Of a stretch of DNA of 36,316 bases, positions 25,596-33,599 are shown in pieces. The notes under the pieces were generated by a model, which was not told where the DNA came from, did not search any database, and worked only from the letters and a program-made list of their open reading frames with translations. Origin of the DNA: an uncultured Desulfuromonadales bacterium. Its GTDB lineage: Bacteria; Desulfobacterota; Desulfuromonadia; Desulfuromonadales; Trichloromonadaceae. The position numbers and the translations under genes were made by a program. Each line of letters opens with the position of its first letter. Within the stretch, counting starts at the first letter, position 1. The stretch is taken from NCBI GenBank assembly GCA_945787465.1, contig CALZIZ010000006.1, forward strand, positions 1 to 36,316, written 5' to 3'.

Positions 25596-26747
25596 TCAGG
25601 CCGGCGGATGGCTGGCCAGGGCGGAGATGGCCCTGAGCAGTTGATCGATATCCTCGGTAGTGTTGAAGTAACCGGGGCTCACCCGCACCGTGCCACGCGG
25701 AAAGGTGCCGATGCTGCGGTGGGCGTCGGGCGCGCAGTGCAGGCCGACCCGGCTGAAAATACCATATTCGCGATCGAGCAGAAACCCGACTTCAGAGGGA
25801 TCCTGATCGCGCAGGTTAAAAGAGAGGGCACCGCCGTGCAGACGGGGCTCCTGGGGACCGTAAAGCTGCACCGCGGGAACGGCCCTGAGCCCTTCGATCA
25901 ACCGTGCCATAAGGTCGGTTTCATGGGCCCTGATGCGCGACTGCCCCTCGCTGCGGATAAATTCGACCCCGGCCTTCAACCCTGCAAGCCCCGGGGTGTT
26001 CAGGGTGCCGCTTTCAAAGCGCTCGGGCATCTGGTCGGGAGGCAGATCGGATTGGGAGTTGCCGCCGGTGCCGCCATAAAGCAGGGGGGTCAGGTTGAGC
26101 CCTTCCCTCAGGTAGAGAAAGCCTGTCCCCTGGGGGCCCATCAACCCCTTGTGCCCCGGAACCGCAAGCAGGTCAATCCCCATGGCCTCAACGTCGATGG
26201 AAAAAAGCCCGGCGCTCTGGGCTGCATCAACCATGAACAGGATCCCGTCGCGACGGCACCTGGGACCGATTTCTTCGATCGCCTGCAGGGTTCCGGTCAC
26301 ATTGGAGCAATGAGAGAGCACCACCATGCGGGTCTTCTGCCGGCAGGCCTCAAATATCGCCGAGGGCTCGACAAAACCACGCTTGTCTGCGGGGACCTTG
26401 ACCAGGATAATGCCGCGGTCCTGCAACGCCCTTAAGGGACGGGTTACGGCGTTGTGTTCCATGGTCGTGGTGACCACCCGGTCACCAGGCTTAAGCATGC
26501 CGAACAAGCCAAGATTGATCGCCTCTGTGGCATTGGCGGTAAAAGCAATGCGGGCTGCGTCGCGGATCGCGAATAACTCGGCAAGCGCCTCACGGGTTTC
26601 AAAGACGATCCGCCCGGCGTCAAGCGCCATGCGGTGCCCGCCCCGGCCGGGGTTGGCGCCTGAATAACGCAGCGCCTGATCGACCGCTGTGCAAACGGCT
26701 TCGGGCTTGGGAAAGGAAGTGGCAGCGTTATCGAGATAAATGCTCAT
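25596..26747 (-). CDS. Class V aminotransferase / cysteine desulfurase family protein
   Basis: YLDNAATSFPKPEAV, SHCSNVTGTLQ, VDAAQSAGLFSIDV, VPGHKGLMGPQGTGFLYL. Confidence 0.9.
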   Translation of the reverse strand: MSIYLDNAATSFPKPEAVCTAVDQALRYSGANPGRGGHRMALDAGRIVFETREALAELFAIRDAARIAFTANATEAINLGLFGMLKPGDRVVTTTMEHNAVTRPLRALQDRGIILVKVPADKRGFVEPSAIFEACRQKTRMVVLSHCSNVTGTLQAIEEIGPRCRRDGILFMVDAAQSAGLFSIDVEAMGIDLLAVPGHKGLMGPQGTGFLYLREGLNLTPLLYGGTGGNSQSDLPPDQMPERFESGTLNTPGLAGLKAGVEFIRSEGQSRIRAHETDLMARLIEGLRAVPAVQLYGPQEPRLHGGALSFNLRDQDPSEVGFLLDREYGIFSRVGLHCAPDAHRSIGTFPRGTVRVSPGYFNTTEDIDQLLRAISALASHPPA

Positions 26748-26950: not shown

Positions 26951-27114
26951 TGGAGACTTTCCGGCAATAAGGACCGAAGCGAAAATCCAGAAGCTTGAGA
27001 ACAGATTTTGGCTCGCTTGAGAGCTCATAGCCGTAGCTATGGGCCGAAAAGGAGCTGAAATATGGGCCAAGCAGCTGGGTTTGCAGCCGGTCATGGATTG
27101 TCGGACAGCCTCCT
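26951..27114. repeat. ~164-nt structured repeat, copy 2, in direct tandem with copy 3
   Basis: High identity to copy 1 (gaccgaagcgaaaatccagaag..gagaacagattttgg..); ends ATTGTCGGACAGCCTCCT. Confidence 0.85.
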
Positions 27115-28083
27115 AGGCCCCGGGCACAGCGGATCCCGTCCGCCACCCGGTTGGTTCAGGGTTCGCCCCAGGCCCCGGCAGCCGCCCATACACAGGCTGT
27201 AGTCACGGCATCCCTCGCATCCGACGGGGATGGCTGCGATCTGCCGGCGCACGGCAAAGCGCTCTTCGGTCTGCCAGAGGTCTTCAAGGTCTTGATCGAG
27301 CAGCGAGCCAAGCTTTACGGGCCAGGACGAGCAGGGGTAGAGCTCTCCCAGCCTGTCAACATGCGCAAGGCTGTTGCCTGCCTGGCAGCCGCCGTACTCA
27401 CTGCGCCCCTCGCCACCCTCGGGAAAGAACAACTCCCAGAGGAACAGGTCATGGACCTCAAGGGACAGTCCCTGACGACAGGCAGAAGGGTTCTCGCCCA
27501 GCTTCAACCGCAGTGATTCCAGGTCCTGAGGACGGATTAACCGCTCTGCCGCAAAGGGGCAAAAGCTATCATCGATCTTGGTGTTTGGCAACTTAATTCG
27601 CCCCACGCCGCGGGAGCGGCAGAGCTCGAGAAACTCAGGTATCTTCAGGAGATTATTCCGGTTGGGAACAAGAAGTAAAGCCGGATCATACCCGGATTTT
27701 CTTACCTGCTCCAGGAGTCGGTCCAGGCCGGCCCGATCGACTCCGCCTGCGGTGACCAGGTCGCCCACGTTAAGCCACAGGGCGGCCAGGGGCAGAGCAG
27801 GTTTCAAGGCCAGAAGTTCCTGCTCAGTTCCTTCGCAAAGCACCTGCACCTGGCATCCCTCGCTTATCAGGGCCTGTACGACCTCGCCAAAGCCTCGATG
27901 AAGGAGAGGACGCTCCTCAAGGGTGACAAAAAAGACCCCGGCCGCGGCAAGCGCATCGGCTACCCGCAGTGCGTTCTTGGTGCTCAGGGGGGTCTCTTCA
28001 GTATACAGCTCCCAGGTGACCCGCAAAGGAGCATCGAGTAAATCGATCGACATAATCGGTTCCGCTTCGGTTGGCAGTTTCAT
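27091..28083 (-). CDS. GeoRSP-like SPASM-domain protein (degenerate radical-SAM fold, no CxxxCxxC)
   Basis: C-terminal Cys-rich SPASM region CQAGNSLAHVDRLGELYPCSSW...CEGCRDYSLCMGGCRG; no N-terminal radical SAM cysteine motif; adjacent to radical SAM and PqqD genes. Confidence 0.75.
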   Translation of the reverse strand: MKLPTEAEPIMSIDLLDAPLRVTWELYTEETPLSTKNALRVADALAAAGVFFVTLEERPLLHRGFGEVVQALISEGCQVQVLCEGTEQELLALKPALPLAALWLNVGDLVTAGGVDRAGLDRLLEQVRKSGYDPALLLVPNRNNLLKIPEFLELCRSRGVGRIKLPNTKIDDSFCPFAAERLIRPQDLESLRLKLGENPSACRQGLSLEVHDLFLWELFFPEGGEGRSEYGGCQAGNSLAHVDRLGELYPCSSWPVKLGSLLDQDLEDLWQTEERFAVRRQIAAIPVGCEGCRDYSLCMGGCRGLGRTLNQPGGGRDPLCPGPRRLSDNP

Positions 28084-28141
28084 TCATATTGCACACAAAC
28101 TATTTTATGCAAAATCCATGGCTAGTTTGCAAAAAGGCAAC

Positions 28142-28176
28142 AAAAAAGGGGGCAGCCAAGCTGCCCCCTTTTTTGG
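28142..28176 (-). terminator. Intrinsic terminator after the 18-aa peptide ORF
   Basis: Minus strand AAAAAAGGGGGCAGCTTGGCTGCCCCCTTTTTTG. Confidence 0.9.
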
Positions 28177-28233
28177 TTAGCAGGGATGGACGTTAGAGGA
28201 ACCGACCACCCGGGGCTTCATGTACTTCTTCAT
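28177..28233 (-). CDS. Candidate RiPP precursor peptide, 18 aa: MKKYMKPRVVGSSNVHPC
   Basis: AAGGAGGTGAGG Shine-Dalgarno at 28237-28248, ATG, stop, terminator 1 nt later; located between radical SAM and SPASM genes. Confidence 0.75.
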   Translation of the reverse strand: MKKYMKPRVVGSSNVHPC

Positions 28234-28258
28234 TTGCCTCACCTCCTTCAGGGTTAAA

Positions 28259-28316: not shown

Positions 28317-29321
28317 CTATTTCCAGCAGTGGGGATCAGGCTCGTTGAAATCCCCCGTTGTAGCAAATGAGCGGGCCGTGCAGCCACCGAGGCATTGTTC
28401 AAATGCTCCACAGTCCAGGCACTTGCCTGTCGCTTCTTTGTTGCGCATCTTGTTCAGAACCGGCGAGTCGTACCAGATACGGTCAAAGTCGTCCTTAAGG
28501 ATATTACCCACGGCCAGGGGAATAAAACCGCAAGGGGTAATATCGCCGTTAGGGCGAAGATTGAGAGAAAGTTTACCACAGCTGCTGCCCTTGACCAACG
28601 GCATTTCGTCGTAACCGGGCAGCGAGGCGATAACCGGGTCATCGAAGGAGATAAGCAGATCGTCCGTCTCCTGCTTGACCGTAAGTGCTTCGATGTAAAA
28701 GGCCTTCCACTGCTCGGGTGAAAGATCGAGGTCCTCGCGGTTCTTGAATCCCCGGCCGCTGCACTTGAAATTGTGCAGATAGACCTGGCTGACCCCGTGG
28801 TCACGGGCCAACTGGAGCAATTCGCGGAAATGCTGATGATTGATCCGGGAAATGACCGAACTCATGGTGGTCTTAAGGCCGGCTTCACGCAGCGCATCGA
28901 GGGCGCCCACAGCCCGCTCGAATGAACCGGGCATATTGCGAAAATCGTCGTGCAGCGCGGCTTCTGCGCTGTCGATGCTGATTCCCACGCTCTTAAAGCC
29001 GCATTGCTTGAGCTGCCGGGCTGCGTCCCGGTCGATCAGCCAGCCGTTGGAGTTCATGGAGACATTGAGCCCCTTGCCCGAAGCATAACTGGCGATCTCG
29101 AACAGATCGTCCCGCACCAGTGGCTCTCCGCCGCCAAAGTTGATAAACGGCACCTGCTTGTCGGCAAGAATATCGACAATGCGCAGAATCTCCGCGGTGG
29201 TTAACTCCTGCGCCTCCTCATCCCGGCTGTAGCAGTGGGAACAGGCAAAATTGCAGCGAAACGACAGGGTCCAGTTAAAGGTCAGCGGCGCAGAAAACAG
29301 GTCGGTAAAGGCATCAGCCAT
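28317..29321 (-). CDS. GeoRSP-like radical SAM/SPASM peptide maturase
   Basis: SFRCNFACSHCYS (CxxxCxxC), FGGGEPL, SPASM cysteines CGKLSLNLRPNGDITPC...CLDCGAFEQCLGGC. Confidence 0.9.
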   Translation of the reverse strand: MADAFTDLFSAPLTFNWTLSFRCNFACSHCYSRDEEAQELTTAEILRIVDILADKQVPFINFGGGEPLVRDDLFEIASYASGKGLNVSMNSNGWLIDRDAARQLKQCGFKSVGISIDSAEAALHDDFRNMPGSFERAVGALDALREAGLKTTMSSVISRINHQHFRELLQLARDHGVSQVYLHNFKCSGRGFKNREDLDLSPEQWKAFYIEALTVKQETDDLLISFDDPVIASLPGYDEMPLVKGSSCGKLSLNLRPNGDITPCGFIPLAVGNILKDDFDRIWYDSPVLNKMRNKEATGKCLDCGAFEQCLGGCTARSFATTGDFNEPDPHCWK

Positions 29322-29628
29322 AGGTCAGCCACCCTCTTTTGAGAAGATCATCGATGAAGTCCTGAACATCCTGGGCAAGAACCTCGCGCTCCACCTCGAA
29401 GTCGGCAGCCAGGGCATCGACAACCTCGTTCTGGCCGCGGGAACCGTCACAGAGGCTCCAGATTTTGCCGCCGACCAGGTTGAGCTGGTGCATCATGCCG
29501 GAGATGATCAGGATCACGGTACCCAGCTCGGAGGCATCTTCCCCCTGTTCCAGGGTCTGGAGCACTTCCTGTTCGCGACGTTTTTCAACCCGCCAGATGA
29601 TCTCGGGGTTGCGTAGCAGAGGTCCCAA
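29314..29628 (-). CDS. PqqD-family (RiPP recognition element) protein
   Basis: NPEIIWRVEKRREQEVL...LNLVGGKIWSLCDGSRGQNEVVDALAADFEVEREVLAQDVQDFIDDLLKRGWL; overlaps radical SAM gene. Confidence 0.85.
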   Translation of the reverse strand: MGPLLRNPEIIWRVEKRREQEVLQTLEQGEDASELGTVILIISGMMHQLNLVGGKIWSLCDGSRGQNEVVDALAADFEVEREVLAQDVQDFIDDLLKRGWLTYG

Positions 29629-29724
29629 ATTCTTAATTCCTTTCTAAAAAATAAATTCTCAAAACCTTATCTCTGGCCACCAAGGCACCAAGCCACCAAG
29701 AAGAGCGAAAAACCTTTTTTCCTG

Positions 29725-29799
29725 CCGTTCATGCTGAGCCTGTCGAAGCATTGGTTCAGCAGACGCTTCCAGGGCCTTCGACAGGCTCAGGCCGAACGG
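29725..29799. repeat. Dispersed inverted repeat CCGTTCATGCTGAGCCTGTCGAAGCA...CCTTCGACAGGCTCAGGCCGAACGG
   Basis: Complementary arms; sequence type widespread in intergenic regions of many bacteria. Confidence 0.8.
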
Positions 29800-29944
29800 A
29801 GTAGGGCCTACCCCACCACTGAAAACACCATACAAGGCACGAAGACACCAAGAAGGGCCATTATGGTTACGAGGTTTTCGAATTTCTTGGTGCCTTGGCG
29901 TCTTGGTGGCAAATAGCCTTTGTCTGGGTTACGAGTCAGAAAAT

Positions 29945-30967
29945 CTAAGCCGTCGACCGTTCGCGAAACAGCAGACTGCTGCCAAGAACGAAAACGAAAC
30001 CGACAAGAAGAGCGACCTTGGCATTCATGGAAACGCCGGCTGCGGTGGCGGCAATGCCCCAGGACTGGACAAGTGCCCCGCCGATAAACATTCCAATCAC
30101 CACCAGCCCGGCATCGGCATCCCCTTCTCCGGCTTTGACCAGCTGGCGAAACGGGCAACCGCCGATAAGGACCGAGATCCAGCCGACCAGGCCCATCCCC
30201 AGAAAACTCCAAAGGTGCTCAAGGTGAGCGCCGGGCTGCCCGTAAAGCCCGAGCCGGAAGCGGCCCGTACCAATGTTGAAGGCCACCGCGGCAACGACAA
30301 ACGCCAGCAACCCCCAAAGCAGGGGAGAGCGGCGGCCCATCAGCATGGTATCGCGCAGGCTTCCGGTAATGCAGAAGCGACTTCGTTGTGCCAGAGCCCC
30401 GAGAACCAGGCCCGCGCCCAGAGACATGAGCAGAGGGGCATGCTGGGCGGCGCTGCCGCGACCAGAAAAGATCAGAAATCCCGGTCGGGTGAGCAGAAAG
30501 CCCAGCAGCAGTACAAACAGCGCGGGAACCAGCAACCCGCTGCCGCCCCCCTGCTCGCTGTGGCGCCCCAGGTGCACCCCGGAGGCCAGGGACCGAAGCC
30601 CGACCCAGACGCCGGCCACAAGGCCGAGCACCCCGCCCAGGGCCGTCAGGTCACCGGCGGTGAACCTCAGCAGCAGCTTGATGGGGCAGCCGATAAAGAC
30701 CGCGCAACCGACGATCAGAAAAATACCGGAGACCAGGCGAGGCAAAGGGGCACTGCCGCCCCGGGAGCGAAATTCGCGAAAGCCGCAGGCACAGATCAGG
30801 GCCCCAAGGACAAAGCCGATCAACTCGGGACGCAGGTACTGCATGCGCGGGTTGTCGTGGAACCCCAGGGCACCGACACTGTTTTCGATAAAACAGGACA
30901 CGCACAGACCGGAGTTTTCAGGGTTGCCCCAGACCGCAAGAAGCACCCCGAGACTACCCAGCAGCAC
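29945..30967 (-). CDS. YedE-type (YeeE/YedE superfamily) selenium/sulfur-metabolism-associated membrane protein
   Basis: GNPENSGLCVSCFIENSVGALGFHDNPRMQYLRPELIGFVLGALICACGFREFRSRGGSAP, FIGCPIKLLLRF, QRSRFCITGSLRD, GGCPFRQLVKAGEGD. Confidence 0.88.
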   Translation of the reverse strand: MLLGSLGVLLAVWGNPENSGLCVSCFIENSVGALGFHDNPRMQYLRPELIGFVLGALICACGFREFRSRGGSAPLPRLVSGIFLIVGCAVFIGCPIKLLLRFTAGDLTALGGVLGLVAGVWVGLRSLASGVHLGRHSEQGGGSGLLVPALFVLLLGFLLTRPGFLIFSGRGSAAQHAPLLMSLGAGLVLGALAQRSRFCITGSLRDTMLMGRRSPLLWGLLAFVVAAVAFNIGTGRFRLGLYGQPGAHLEHLWSFLGMGLVGWISVLIGGCPFRQLVKAGEGDADAGLVVIGMFIGGALVQSWGIAATAAGVSMNAKVALLVGFVFVLGSSLLFRERSTA

Positions 30968-31012
30968 ACCGGCACCGACGCCCAGAAATTTGCGTCTCGA
31001 AGATTCATAGCT

Positions 31013-31558
31013 CTATTCACAGCCCCCGGCCAGACGGCTCTGCAGGTAATAGACGTTTTTAAGCGCCGCGGCGAGGGTGGGATTGTCAGGGTTGCGCCGG
31101 GCCCGGGGGCCAAGGGTTGTAAGCCCCTCATCGACCAGCTGACGGATTTCCGTCCGCCGGGACAGGGGACTGGCCTCGTCGATGTAATCGCCGTTGAGTC
31201 GCACCCCGTGCACATAGTTGCCGACCGCCTCTTCGAGCACCCCCTGCTGCTTGAGGATAGCGCCTTTTAGCAGGTAACCATGGGCCTCGCCGGGGTAGCT
31301 GCGCTCGAGCTCCTGCAGCTTGAGCAGGGCCCGCTGCGTCTCTCCGCCATCCTGCAGAGCCTGCACCGGGCCGTAGAGCTTTTGCAGGAAACTGACCCTG
31401 GCCTGGTAGGCGATCTCCTGCTCCATCCCCTTGTCGAGGGCGGACAGATGCCGGGCATCGCTCCCCGAGGGGGCGCCGAGCAGAACAAGGGCGGCAAGGG
31501 CCGCAAGAGTTGCGCCCAGCCCAAGCCAGATCAACCTGTCAAACCAGTCCTGCAGCAT
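31013..31558 (-). CDS. TPR-like membrane-anchored protein
   Basis: N-terminal TM segment; helical LKLQELERSYPGEAHGYLLKGAILKQQGVLEEAVGNYVHGVRLN. Confidence 0.65.
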   Translation of the reverse strand: MLQDWFDRLIWLGLGATLAALAALVLLGAPSGSDARHLSALDKGMEQEIAYQARVSFLQKLYGPVQALQDGGETQRALLKLQELERSYPGEAHGYLLKGAILKQQGVLEEAVGNYVHGVRLNGDYIDEASPLSRRTEIRQLVDEGLTTLGPRARRNPDNPTLAAALKNVYYLQSRLAGGCE

Positions 31559-31564
31559 GTTTCT

Positions 31565-32506
31565 CTAAAACTCCTGGTAAGGCGGCATGTTGGCCCGGCG
31601 GGCCATGCCCCGGATCGGGTCGTAATCGCTGTCGAGCAGCTGCTCGAATCCATCGACCCAGGCCGACTTGAGCACGCGGATCCGCTCGCCTTCTATCTCA
31701 ACCGTATCCTCGGGTTTGAGCTCAAGGAGCGCCTTGCGGAACTTTTCCCTGAGTTCGGCATTCACTCCGGCTGAAGCCCCGAAGGTGCAGTAAGGGATGA
31801 CCGGGCTCTGCGCGAGAATATTAAAATCATCAGCGGTGATTTTTCCCTCGTGGGTCATGACCTCGAGGTCGAGTGCCGGGGCCGCGGCCACGTCGAACTC
31901 GCCGAAATATACCCCGTAGACGACCTTTTCGTGCTTGAAGGAACCAGAGGGGATGGCGTAATAGCTGAGTTCAAGCTCAGGATCGATGCCGGCGGCGAGC
32001 ATCAGGTCGTACTGGGCAAGGTAACCGGTGGGGGCGAGCTGGGGGCCGAAAAGCATGCGCTTGCCGCGGATATCTTCGAGTTTCTCGATGCCGCTGCCCT
32101 TGCGGGAGATGATGGCGCCTGCGGTACGCGAGCCGTATTGGCCGCGTTTTTCGGTGGCCAGAAGTTCAAGTGCGTGGTTTTCGCGCAGGATGATGTAAAC
32201 CAGGGAGTTGCTGTGGGTAAAATCGAACTCCCCCTTGGCAAAGCGCTCTTCGAAATCCTGGGTATCGACCGGGACCGTCTCGAAATCGACGCCGAGCTTT
32301 TCCGAGAGGTAGCGGGTCAGGGGACGAAACCTTTCCAGGGTCTCAGCCTCGCTGTTGCAGTTCATGTAGCCGATACGCATTTTGGGCCGCTGTTGAGCCT
32401 GGTCGCAACCGCAAAGAACAAGCAGCAGAGCGGAGAAAACCAAAGCGAATAAAGAGACCGACTTGCAAAACCTTGCCCTGTAAAACTTCATATCATTCCT
32501 TAACAT
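31565..32506 (-). CDS. PhnD-like phosphate/phosphonate-type periplasmic binding lipoprotein
   Basis: LLLVLCGCDQ lipobox; RIGYMNCNSEAETLERFRPLTRYLSEKLGVDFETVPVDTQDFEERFAKGEFDFTHSNSLVYIIL. Confidence 0.85.
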   Translation of the reverse strand: MLRNDMKFYRARFCKSVSLFALVFSALLLVLCGCDQAQQRPKMRIGYMNCNSEAETLERFRPLTRYLSEKLGVDFETVPVDTQDFEERFAKGEFDFTHSNSLVYIILRENHALELLATEKRGQYGSRTAGAIISRKGSGIEKLEDIRGKRMLFGPQLAPTGYLAQYDLMLAAGIDPELELSYYAIPSGSFKHEKVVYGVYFGEFDVAAAPALDLEVMTHEGKITADDFNILAQSPVIPYCTFGASAGVNAELREKFRKALLELKPEDTVEIEGERIRVLKSAWVDGFEQLLDSDYDPIRGMARRANMPPYQEF

Positions 32507-33599
32507 TCAGAACATCCGTTGTCATGGCAGGGGGATGGGCCAGGGGAGCGGAAAAATCGACCAGCCCCAGCCCCTGACGATCCTGGCCATCGCGAATCAG
32601 CGTGGAGATCTCCTCTTCGGCCAGCGCCCCCCACCAGTTGGAGCCGAGGGCGGCATCTTCGGTACCGTCATTGATGACAGCGTATTCGCCATTGCCGGCA
32701 AGCCAATTGCCTTCGATACGACCGGAGGAATCGATCAGCCGAAGCCCCGCCCGGCCGTTGCCGGTGATGCGATTGGCTGCCAGCTCACATTCACTCTCTT
32801 CAAGAAAAATGCCATGCTCGCTGTTATCGGCAAGCAGATTGCCCTCGATGGTCCCCTTTGAGCGTTGCAGGTAAAGCCCTTTGCGATTGCCGCTAATGCG
32901 GTTGGCCCGAGCCTGAAGGTTCGAATCGCGCAGGCTCATGCCGTTGATGAGGTTCCCCTCGATCCGGCAATTGTTCATGGCGACATCACTGTAAACGCAG
33001 CGCACCCCCCAATGATTATCGGTCACCGTCAGGCGTTCCAGGGTGACCTCAGAGTTGCGAAACTGCAGACCGTTGAGGTTGCGCTCAATGCGGCATTGCT
33101 CTATGGCAACGGTCGATTCCTGAAACTGCGCGCCGCGGACATTGAAACGGAAAAGGCAGTTTTTCAGCTCGGCCCTGGCAAAATGCGCATGAAAGCCGCG
33201 ATAGGCGTATTCGACGATGCAGTGCTCGAGGCGGTTGTTCTCTTCAGAGGCCATCATATTGAGGGCGCCCCAGAAACCGGGACGGGGATCGGAGCCGGCC
33301 GAGGTGAAAACCACCGGCCGCTCGGCCGTACCGCGGGCCAGGAAAATCCCCTGCACAAAAATTTCGTGTTCGCCGATGCCGTCCTCGTTACTGTCGAAGA
33401 AGGTGAAACGAATCACTGTTCCTGGGCGGATTTCCAGCGTAACGCCAGGCGCAACTGTCAGAATCCCGTCAATTAATACCTCTCCCTCCCAGACCGTATC
33501 CTCGTAAACCGTATTTTCTCCGATATAGGTCAAGGGAGTCGCGGCGCCGGCAATACCGTTCAAAAAAATCAGCGCTGTGGCGAGCAGAAATATCCTCAT
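32493..33599 (-). CDS. Secreted right-handed parallel beta-helix (NosD/PbH1-like) protein
   Basis: Signal peptide; iterated CRIEGN / NRITGN / NWLAGN rungs. Confidence 0.85.
   Translation of the reverse strand: MRIFLLATALIFLNGIAGAATPLTYIGENTVYEDTVWEGEVLIDGILTVAPGVTLEIRPGTVIRFTFFDSNEDGIGEHEIFVQGIFLARGTAERPVVFTSAGSDPRPGFWGALNMMASEENNRLEHCIVEYAYRGFHAHFARAELKNCLFRFNVRGAQFQESTVAIEQCRIERNLNGLQFRNSEVTLERLTVTDNHWGVRCVYSDVAMNNCRIEGNLINGMSLRDSNLQARANRISGNRKGLYLQRSKGTIEGNLLADNSEHGIFLEESECELAANRITGNGRAGLRLIDSSGRIEGNWLAGNGEYAVINDGTEDAALGSNWWGALAEEEISTLIRDGQDRQGLGLVDFSAPLAHPPAMTTDVLNVKE

Follow-up and report, generated by a model that had tools for sequence, protein, structure and literature searches.

The locus studied here raises the question of whether an unannotated open reading frame of only 18 codons, lying inside a GeoRSP-type cassette, is a real gene and, if so, what the encoded peptide is for. 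In the window, by which we mean the whole stretch of DNA that was analysed (36,316 nt from an uncultured Desulfuromonadales bacterium), the reading frame lies on the minus strand, where positions 28248-28177 read AAGGAGGTGAGGCAA-ATG...TGC-TAA and encode MKKYMKPRVVGSSNVHPC*. The hidden 18-aa precursor-like peptide MKKYMKPRVVGSSNVHPC (28177..28233; ATG at 28233, TAA at 28177, 18 codons plus stop), the ribosome-binding site upstream of it (AAGGAGGTGAGG, 28237..28248, minus strand) and the clean start and stop put forward in the original prediction are all present as described. The strong terminator expected right after the stop was likewise found, as an intrinsic hairpin on the same strand (28141..28175; 16 pairs and a T run) no more than 2 nt past the peptide stop, with a folding energy of -29.3 kcal/mol, a folding z of -4.9 against shuffles and a T-run on both strands.

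The case for a real gene rests on conservation. Related GeoRSP radical SAM loci were collected by protein similarity and the TIGR04303 model, without reference to the peptide, and the scan for local copies constrained nothing but the N-terminal part, through the 5' pattern ATGAAR...TAY......CC. The original prediction was to be checked by the presence of a homologous micro-ORF at such loci and by a coding constraint in its substitutions, and both checks came out in its favor. Of 40 related GeoRSP loci (Desulfuromonas-type clade), 33 have a homologue immediately after the radical SAM gene, and every one of these has 18 codons and a C-terminal HPC, though the scan had left the 3' end free. Some genomes were present in both locus sets, and the substitution rates were computed on the 27 distinct DNA sequences of the local copies, which gave a pS of 0.63, a pN of 0.078 and a pN/pS of 0.12. 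All three stop codons are used among the copies, the flanks are not conserved, and serine is mostly encoded by TCN in local and by AGY in dispersed copies at the same residues; an SD-like purine run stands before nearly all copies. This is purifying selection at the protein level with free synonymous change, and the 18-aa micro-ORF is a real gene, far beyond what chance would give. Being short, selected at the protein level and placed next to genes for an RRE and a maturase, the ORF also satisfies one of the criteria for a RiPP precursor.

The family consensus is M-K-K-(x)-Y-x-x-P-[KR]-[VI]-V-G-[ST]-[AS]-x-[VI]-H-P-C-stop. The predicted likeness of the basic KKYMKPxV-type N-terminus to leaders bound by PqqD was upheld in the form of a PqqA-like KKYxKPxV, as a resemblance only and without binding data. 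The C-terminus had been proposed to offer a terminal Cys and small polar residues as modification sites. The Cys is kept, but conservation within the family does not extend to the small polar residues: N, D, S, T, V and A all occur at position 14, and S12/S13 vary as well. Judged from the alignment, only G11, V/I15, H16, P17 and C18 are strong candidates for core residues. The searches for dispersed copies described below fixed Y, P, V and HPC, for which reason the conservation of these residues is unbiased in the local set only.

The peptide gene sits between the gene of the GeoRSP radical SAM/SPASM protein and that of a degenerate radical-SAM-like SPASM partner. The three proteins of the cassette had been said to resemble GeoRSP families, which holds at the curated cut-offs for two of them. 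The radical SAM/SPASM maturase (28317..29321, minus strand, 334 aa, CxxxCxxC at CNFACSHC) scores 462.6 bits with TIGR04303 (cut-off 400), and the PqqD-family peptide chaperone, or RRE (29314..29628, minus strand; TIGR04302, PF05402), scores 102.5 bits with TIGR04302 (cut-off 100); as predicted, the two genes overlap, 29628-29314 running over the start of 29321-28317. The SPASM partner (about 27091..28083, minus strand; assigned from TIGR04304, alignment and a model) reaches only 97.8 bits where TIGR04304 asks for 300, and because of this we regard the cassette of the window as a divergent GeoRSP. The partner aligns over its full length with Geobacter-type partners (24-27% identity) and occupies the same gene position. 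It has a radical SAM fold without the catalytic CxxxCxxC motif, in agreement with the expectation of a second SPASM protein lacking these cysteines, and its C-terminal (SPASM) cysteines are invariant across 22 homologues. Its predicted structure (pLDDT 89) matches the fold of SuiB, PqqE, SkfB and anSME, and it is probably a dead relative of radical SAM enzymes that positions the substrate or relays electrons.

For the active enzyme, the closest solved structure by sequence is PqqE, and the next NCBIfam matches after GeoRSP are AhbD, MftC and NirJ. It fails the criterion for mycofactocin (TIGR03962, 200.7 bits, cut-off 265) as well as that for PQQ (TIGR02109, 128 bits, cut-off 381), and the peptide contains no Glu and so no ExxxY core. 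Neither a peptidase nor tailoring enzymes of the PqqB/C or MftD-F type were recognised in the cassette of the window.

The surrounding genes, all on the minus strand, encode a YedE-family putative selenium/sulfur transporter (29945..30967; TIGR04112, 400 bits; conserved neighbour cluster 3, also in G309 and G399), a membrane protein with TPR-like similarity (31013..31558) and a PhnD-like periplasmic binding protein (31565..32506; PF12974), the latter two also being conserved GeoRSP neighbours. They are joined by a NosD-like secreted protein with a parallel beta-helix (32493..33599; neighbour cluster 1, homologues in G309 and G399) and a second NosD-like protein related to the first (34405-33596); a comparable 833-aa protein of the Geobacterales is NosD/Beta_helix. 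A cysteine desulfurase family protein is encoded beside the cassette (25596..26747; TIGR01977, 475 bits; cluster 10) and recurs at 8 loci, which are Desulfuromonadales loci only. We observe that the YedE, TPR, PhnD-like and NosD-like genes (29945-33599 in the window) accompany GeoRSP in distant lineages (L011-L025, L241, L242), and that the gap between the PqqD and YedE genes (29676-29923) holds nested inverted repeats with arms of 36 nt and 24 nt and a dispersed, REP-type look. The YedE neighbour prompted us to consider a role for selenium; as all three stop codons occur after TGY in the copies, the peptide ends in a true stop and not in a selenocysteine codon.

The peptide is not confined to the cassette. 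Genomes were searched with a degenerate DNA pattern for the peptide, the reversed pattern serving as a control. The pattern matches 57 of the 136 genomes of the order Desulfuromonadales, and the reversed control gave zero matches in the same 136 genomes. Six copies were found in the window's own genome and 1-5 in most of the other matching genomes of the order. The five extra copies of the window genome, which the original prediction had missed (G000:C41, C46, C387; L087-L089), adjoin large CxxCH-rich proteins, and two of them stand in tandem, 100 bp apart. By the same search, 37 of 141 Geobacterales genomes carry the peptide in 1-6 copies each, further copies occur among Nitrospirota genomes that bear GeoRSP and elsewhere in that phylum group, and each of the three more distant GeoRSP genomes tested (3/3) has 2-5. 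In a genome from the phylum search (G309, locus L241) the radical SAM protein shares 60% identity with that of the window, and the peptide comes immediately after it. At L225, in the Geobacterales, NosD-like, ResB and permease genes separate the cassette from a pair of peptide genes further upstream. In some distant genomes (L237 and L239, in G299 and G308) the peptide was seen to adjoin genes of the response-regulator and pseudopilin-like kinds, some ending in YADW or YSDW. The peptide is thus a dispersed multicopy family with near-identical copies.

If these peptides are substrates of the cassette, the two should occur in the same genomes. We took GeoRSP to be present when a radical SAM protein exceeded the TIGR04303 cut-off or was found as fragments at contig edges. 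Among the Desulfuromonadales, 53 genomes have both, 3 the peptide only, 1 GeoRSP only and 79 neither (Fisher p 7e-33); the corresponding numbers for the Geobacterales are 33, 4, 2 and 102 (p 2e-25). Neither p-value is corrected for phylogeny, although single genera (e.g. g11, g28) show presence and absence in alternation. The mismatches are mostly genomes that are incomplete, and the only GeoRSP-only mismatch of the Desulfuromonadales (G093) disappeared on renewed search, when copies were found. The exceptions are three. G182, which is complete and has the best GeoRSP radical SAM score of its order, and G226 both have the enzyme but no recognisable HPC peptide was found in them, possibly because their precursor is a diverged form; in G239, which is 97% complete, the peptide is present and GeoRSP was not found. 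Cassettes without a local copy (G021, G092, G094, G095, G132) have dispersed copies elsewhere in the genome, so that the cassette, if it acts on these, must do so in trans. The near one-to-one co-occurrence supports the view that the peptide is the GeoRSP precursor.

We examined 90 distinct dispersed copies for upstream genes on the same strand within 400 bp, and 70 of them have one, at a median gap of about 60 bp and with a median length of 1270 aa; several copies lack such a gene, a few of these standing at contig ends. The upstream protein contains at least 5 CxxCH haem motifs in 44 of the 70 cases, as against 19 of 307 other ORFs nearby (p 2e-24), and this count is conservative, since the 'upstream genes' on the opposite strand are often antisense ORFs over multihaem or FG-GAP genes. 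Domains of the partners in Pfam and NCBIfam include cytochrome c7/c3, MtrC/F-like and GSu_C4xC__C2xCH, and the remaining partners are mainly FG-GAP/ASPIC propellers and FN3-rich giants, together with one CarboxypepD_reg protein. At a series of loci (L107-L115, L118, L119, L136, L145) we noted a second class of partner, in which the peptide comes about 70 bp after the gene of a secreted, FG-GAP/ASPIC-UnbV-like propeller (470-530 aa), and beside two peptide-cytochrome pairs small proteins that look dodecin-like by eye (L088, 4545-4769, plus strand; L104, 5473-5691, minus strand).

Many partner cytochromes end in a common tail, G-W-N-x-(V/L)-T-P-W, which in Geobacterales and Nitrospirota takes the form W-N-x-x-[TS]-[PQE]-W. 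The GWNx(V/L)TPW tail occurs in 26 of 136 Desulfuromonadales genomes, all 26 of which belong to the 57-genome set with peptide or GeoRSP (p 2e-12), and the W-N-x-K-T-[PQ]-W tail in 10 of 141 Geobacterales genomes, all 10 GeoRSP-positive (p 3e-7). A peptide gene lies within 250 bp of 18 of 41 and 10 of 17 tails in the two orders, and in more distant genomes the same tail also precedes the peptide. Tailed giant multihaem proteins were seen at L139, L143, L144, L211, L213, L240, L244-L247 and other loci. The tail is absent from the FG-GAP and FN3 partners. We also considered that the product might be required for CxxxxCH cytochromes generally and rejected this, as TIGR01904 cytochromes are found in 98 of 141 Geobacterales, most of them without GeoRSP. 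Since the tail occurs only in genomes with the system and TIGR01904 is widespread, the system tracks the tailed subset, not the CxxxxCH cytochromes as a whole.

We favor the reading, to which we assign a probability of roughly 0.78, that these peptides are the precursors so far missing from GeoRSP, that their maturation takes place in trans at the C-terminal HPC, and that the extracellular redox proteins encoded with them make use of the result. That the peptide of the window is the precursor of a GeoRSP-type cassette was the central claim of the original prediction and remains the best-supported reading, given the conservation, the PqqA-like N-terminus, the invariant HPC and the co-occurrence, though modification has not been shown. 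The gene, its conservation and selection, its co-occurrence with GeoRSP, its neighbourhood and the association with the tail are observed, whereas binding, modification, its site, export and use are inferred. PqqD is known to bind PqqA (PMC8326336); here the PqqD protein would bind the basic N-terminus KKYxKPRV, for which there are no binding data, and present the C-terminus to the radical SAM/SPASM enzyme. This enzyme, together with its catalytically dead SPASM partner, would then modify the invariant C-terminus V/I-H-P-C, where the terminal Cys is the prime target because only G11, V/I15, H16, P17 and C18 are strongly kept. The mycofactocin enzyme, a related SPASM maturase, carries out an oxidative decarboxylation of a peptide Tyr followed by formation of a C-C bond to the adjacent Val (PMC8326336), and by analogy we would expect, as the most likely chemistry, oxidative decarboxylation of the terminal Cys or a Cys cross-link. 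Most of the other copies would be translated at the 3' end of genes for giant secreted proteins, either multihaem or beta-propeller, and matured in trans by the same cassette. The product could be a small cofactor derived from the peptide, or a group attached to the extracellular redox proteins that it serves, and its use would probably be connected with the C-terminal WNxxTPW tail domain. Against this reading stand the lack of biochemical evidence for any modification, a peptide without a signal sequence and with no exporter identified, the copies that are not behind a giant gene, the mismatches in G182, G226 and G239, and the missing correction for phylogeny.

The use of the inferred product can be pictured in more than one way. 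One possibility, which we hold only tentatively, is that the same precursor and cassette yield a free, diffusible redox cofactor like PQQ or mycofactocin, with the neighbouring giants as its users in the manner of PQQ- or mycofactocin-dependent dehydrogenases. The core is nearly invariant in every copy whatever the partner, the multicopy precursors lie near user genes, the partners include propellers of the FG-GAP kind as well as multihaem proteins, PqqE/MftC/AhbD come nearest to the radical SAM protein, and the co-occurrence follows the logic applied to mycofactocin (PMC3023750); but the cassette has no recognised tailoring enzymes or peptidase, and the partners are not known as cofactor-dependent dehydrogenases. 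Slightly weaker, and on balance unlikely, is a modified peptide that is covalently joined to the tailed giant through its WNxxTPW domain, or tightly held as its subunit, and acts as a surface anchor or electron-entry group. The restriction of the tail to system genomes in two orders and the closeness of peptide genes and tails, repeated in distant genomes, speak for such attachment, while FG-GAP and FN3 partners have no tail, some tails have no adjacent peptide gene and no ligase has been identified. In broader terms, it could go either way whether GeoRSP makes an unknown peptide-derived group from dispersed micro-genes that is installed on, or used by, giant multihaem and propeller proteins via the C-terminal tail domain.

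We find it hard to believe that the peptide stays unmodified, with a small structural or signalling role, and that GeoRSP has some other target. A modification has yet to be demonstrated and short secreted-protein partners do exist, but GeoRSP is present in 53 of 56 peptide-bearing Desulfuromonadales genomes and 33 of 37 in the Geobacterales, and the peptide comes immediately after the GeoRSP radical SAM gene at 33 of 40 loci and in a more distant genome. Even less credible is a regulatory leader or attenuator whose translation would govern the terminator or the SPASM gene that follows, without being an enzyme substrate: the strong hairpin 2 nt past the stop and the tight spacing would suit it, but the majority of copies form the 3' end of other operons and are often followed by a gene on the opposite strand, the conservation is in amino acids and not in nucleotides, and the co-occurrence with GeoRSP is near-exclusive. 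That the ORF arose by chance or travels with a repeat element, as the multiple copies and the position of some near contig ends might suggest, is refuted by the pN/pS of 0.12, the fixed length, the three stop codons, the lack of conserved flanks and the zero matches of the reversed pattern.

Returning to the proposed precursors of GeoRSP, we see a strongly supported substrate family that is multicopy, expected to be processed in trans, and tied to giant secreted cytochromes of mineral-respiring bacteria, which suggests that mineral-breathing bacteria fit giant secreted electron-carrying proteins with a chemically modified mini-peptide. If true, this would add a new class of post-translational component to what is used for extracellular electron transfer, and it raises the question of what product is made from the HPC end and whether extracellular electron transfer depends on it. 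Four variants of the peptide gave no match to NCBIfam/Pfam models at E up to 10, although filters may miss models of short peptides, and we found no description of GeoRSP in this sense, its substrate or the peptide in the literature searched, which did not cover most subscription papers.

The cassette shares with GeoRSP (TIGR04302, TIGR04303, TIGR04304) the gene order PqqD - radical SAM - SPASM and two proteins above the cut-offs, and differs in an SPASM partner well below its own; the precursor, its multicopy nature and the partner proteins are added here. With PqqA/PqqD/PqqE it has in common a very short precursor with a basic, Pro-containing N-terminus, a separate PqqD chaperone and a SPASM maturase of the same fold, but the peptide lacks the Glu/Tyr pair in its core and ends in HPC, and the cassette lacks PqqB/C. 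In the PQQ system, too, extra precursor copies lie near user genes. The precursor core of mycofactocin ends in GVY, and the Tyr that is decarboxylated is C-terminal. Like mycofactocin (MftA/B/C), the GeoRSP peptide is expected to carry its reacting residues at the extreme C-terminus and is paired with redox proteins; unlike it, it ends in HPC and has partners that are extracellular and not nicotinoproteins. Another feature in common with mycofactocin is a sporadic presence that is matched by that of partner families (PMC3023750). The giant CxxxxCH-CxxCH or GSu_C4xC__C2xCH cytochromes (TIGR01904, PF09698) are one family of partners encoded upstream of the peptide, but a family much wider than GeoRSP, of which only the WNxxTPW-tailed subset follows the system. 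In conclusion, the cassette was known from the TIGR models, whereas what appears to be new is a family of precursors that comes in many copies, is tied to tailed giant cytochromes and extends to the Geobacterales and Nitrospirota.
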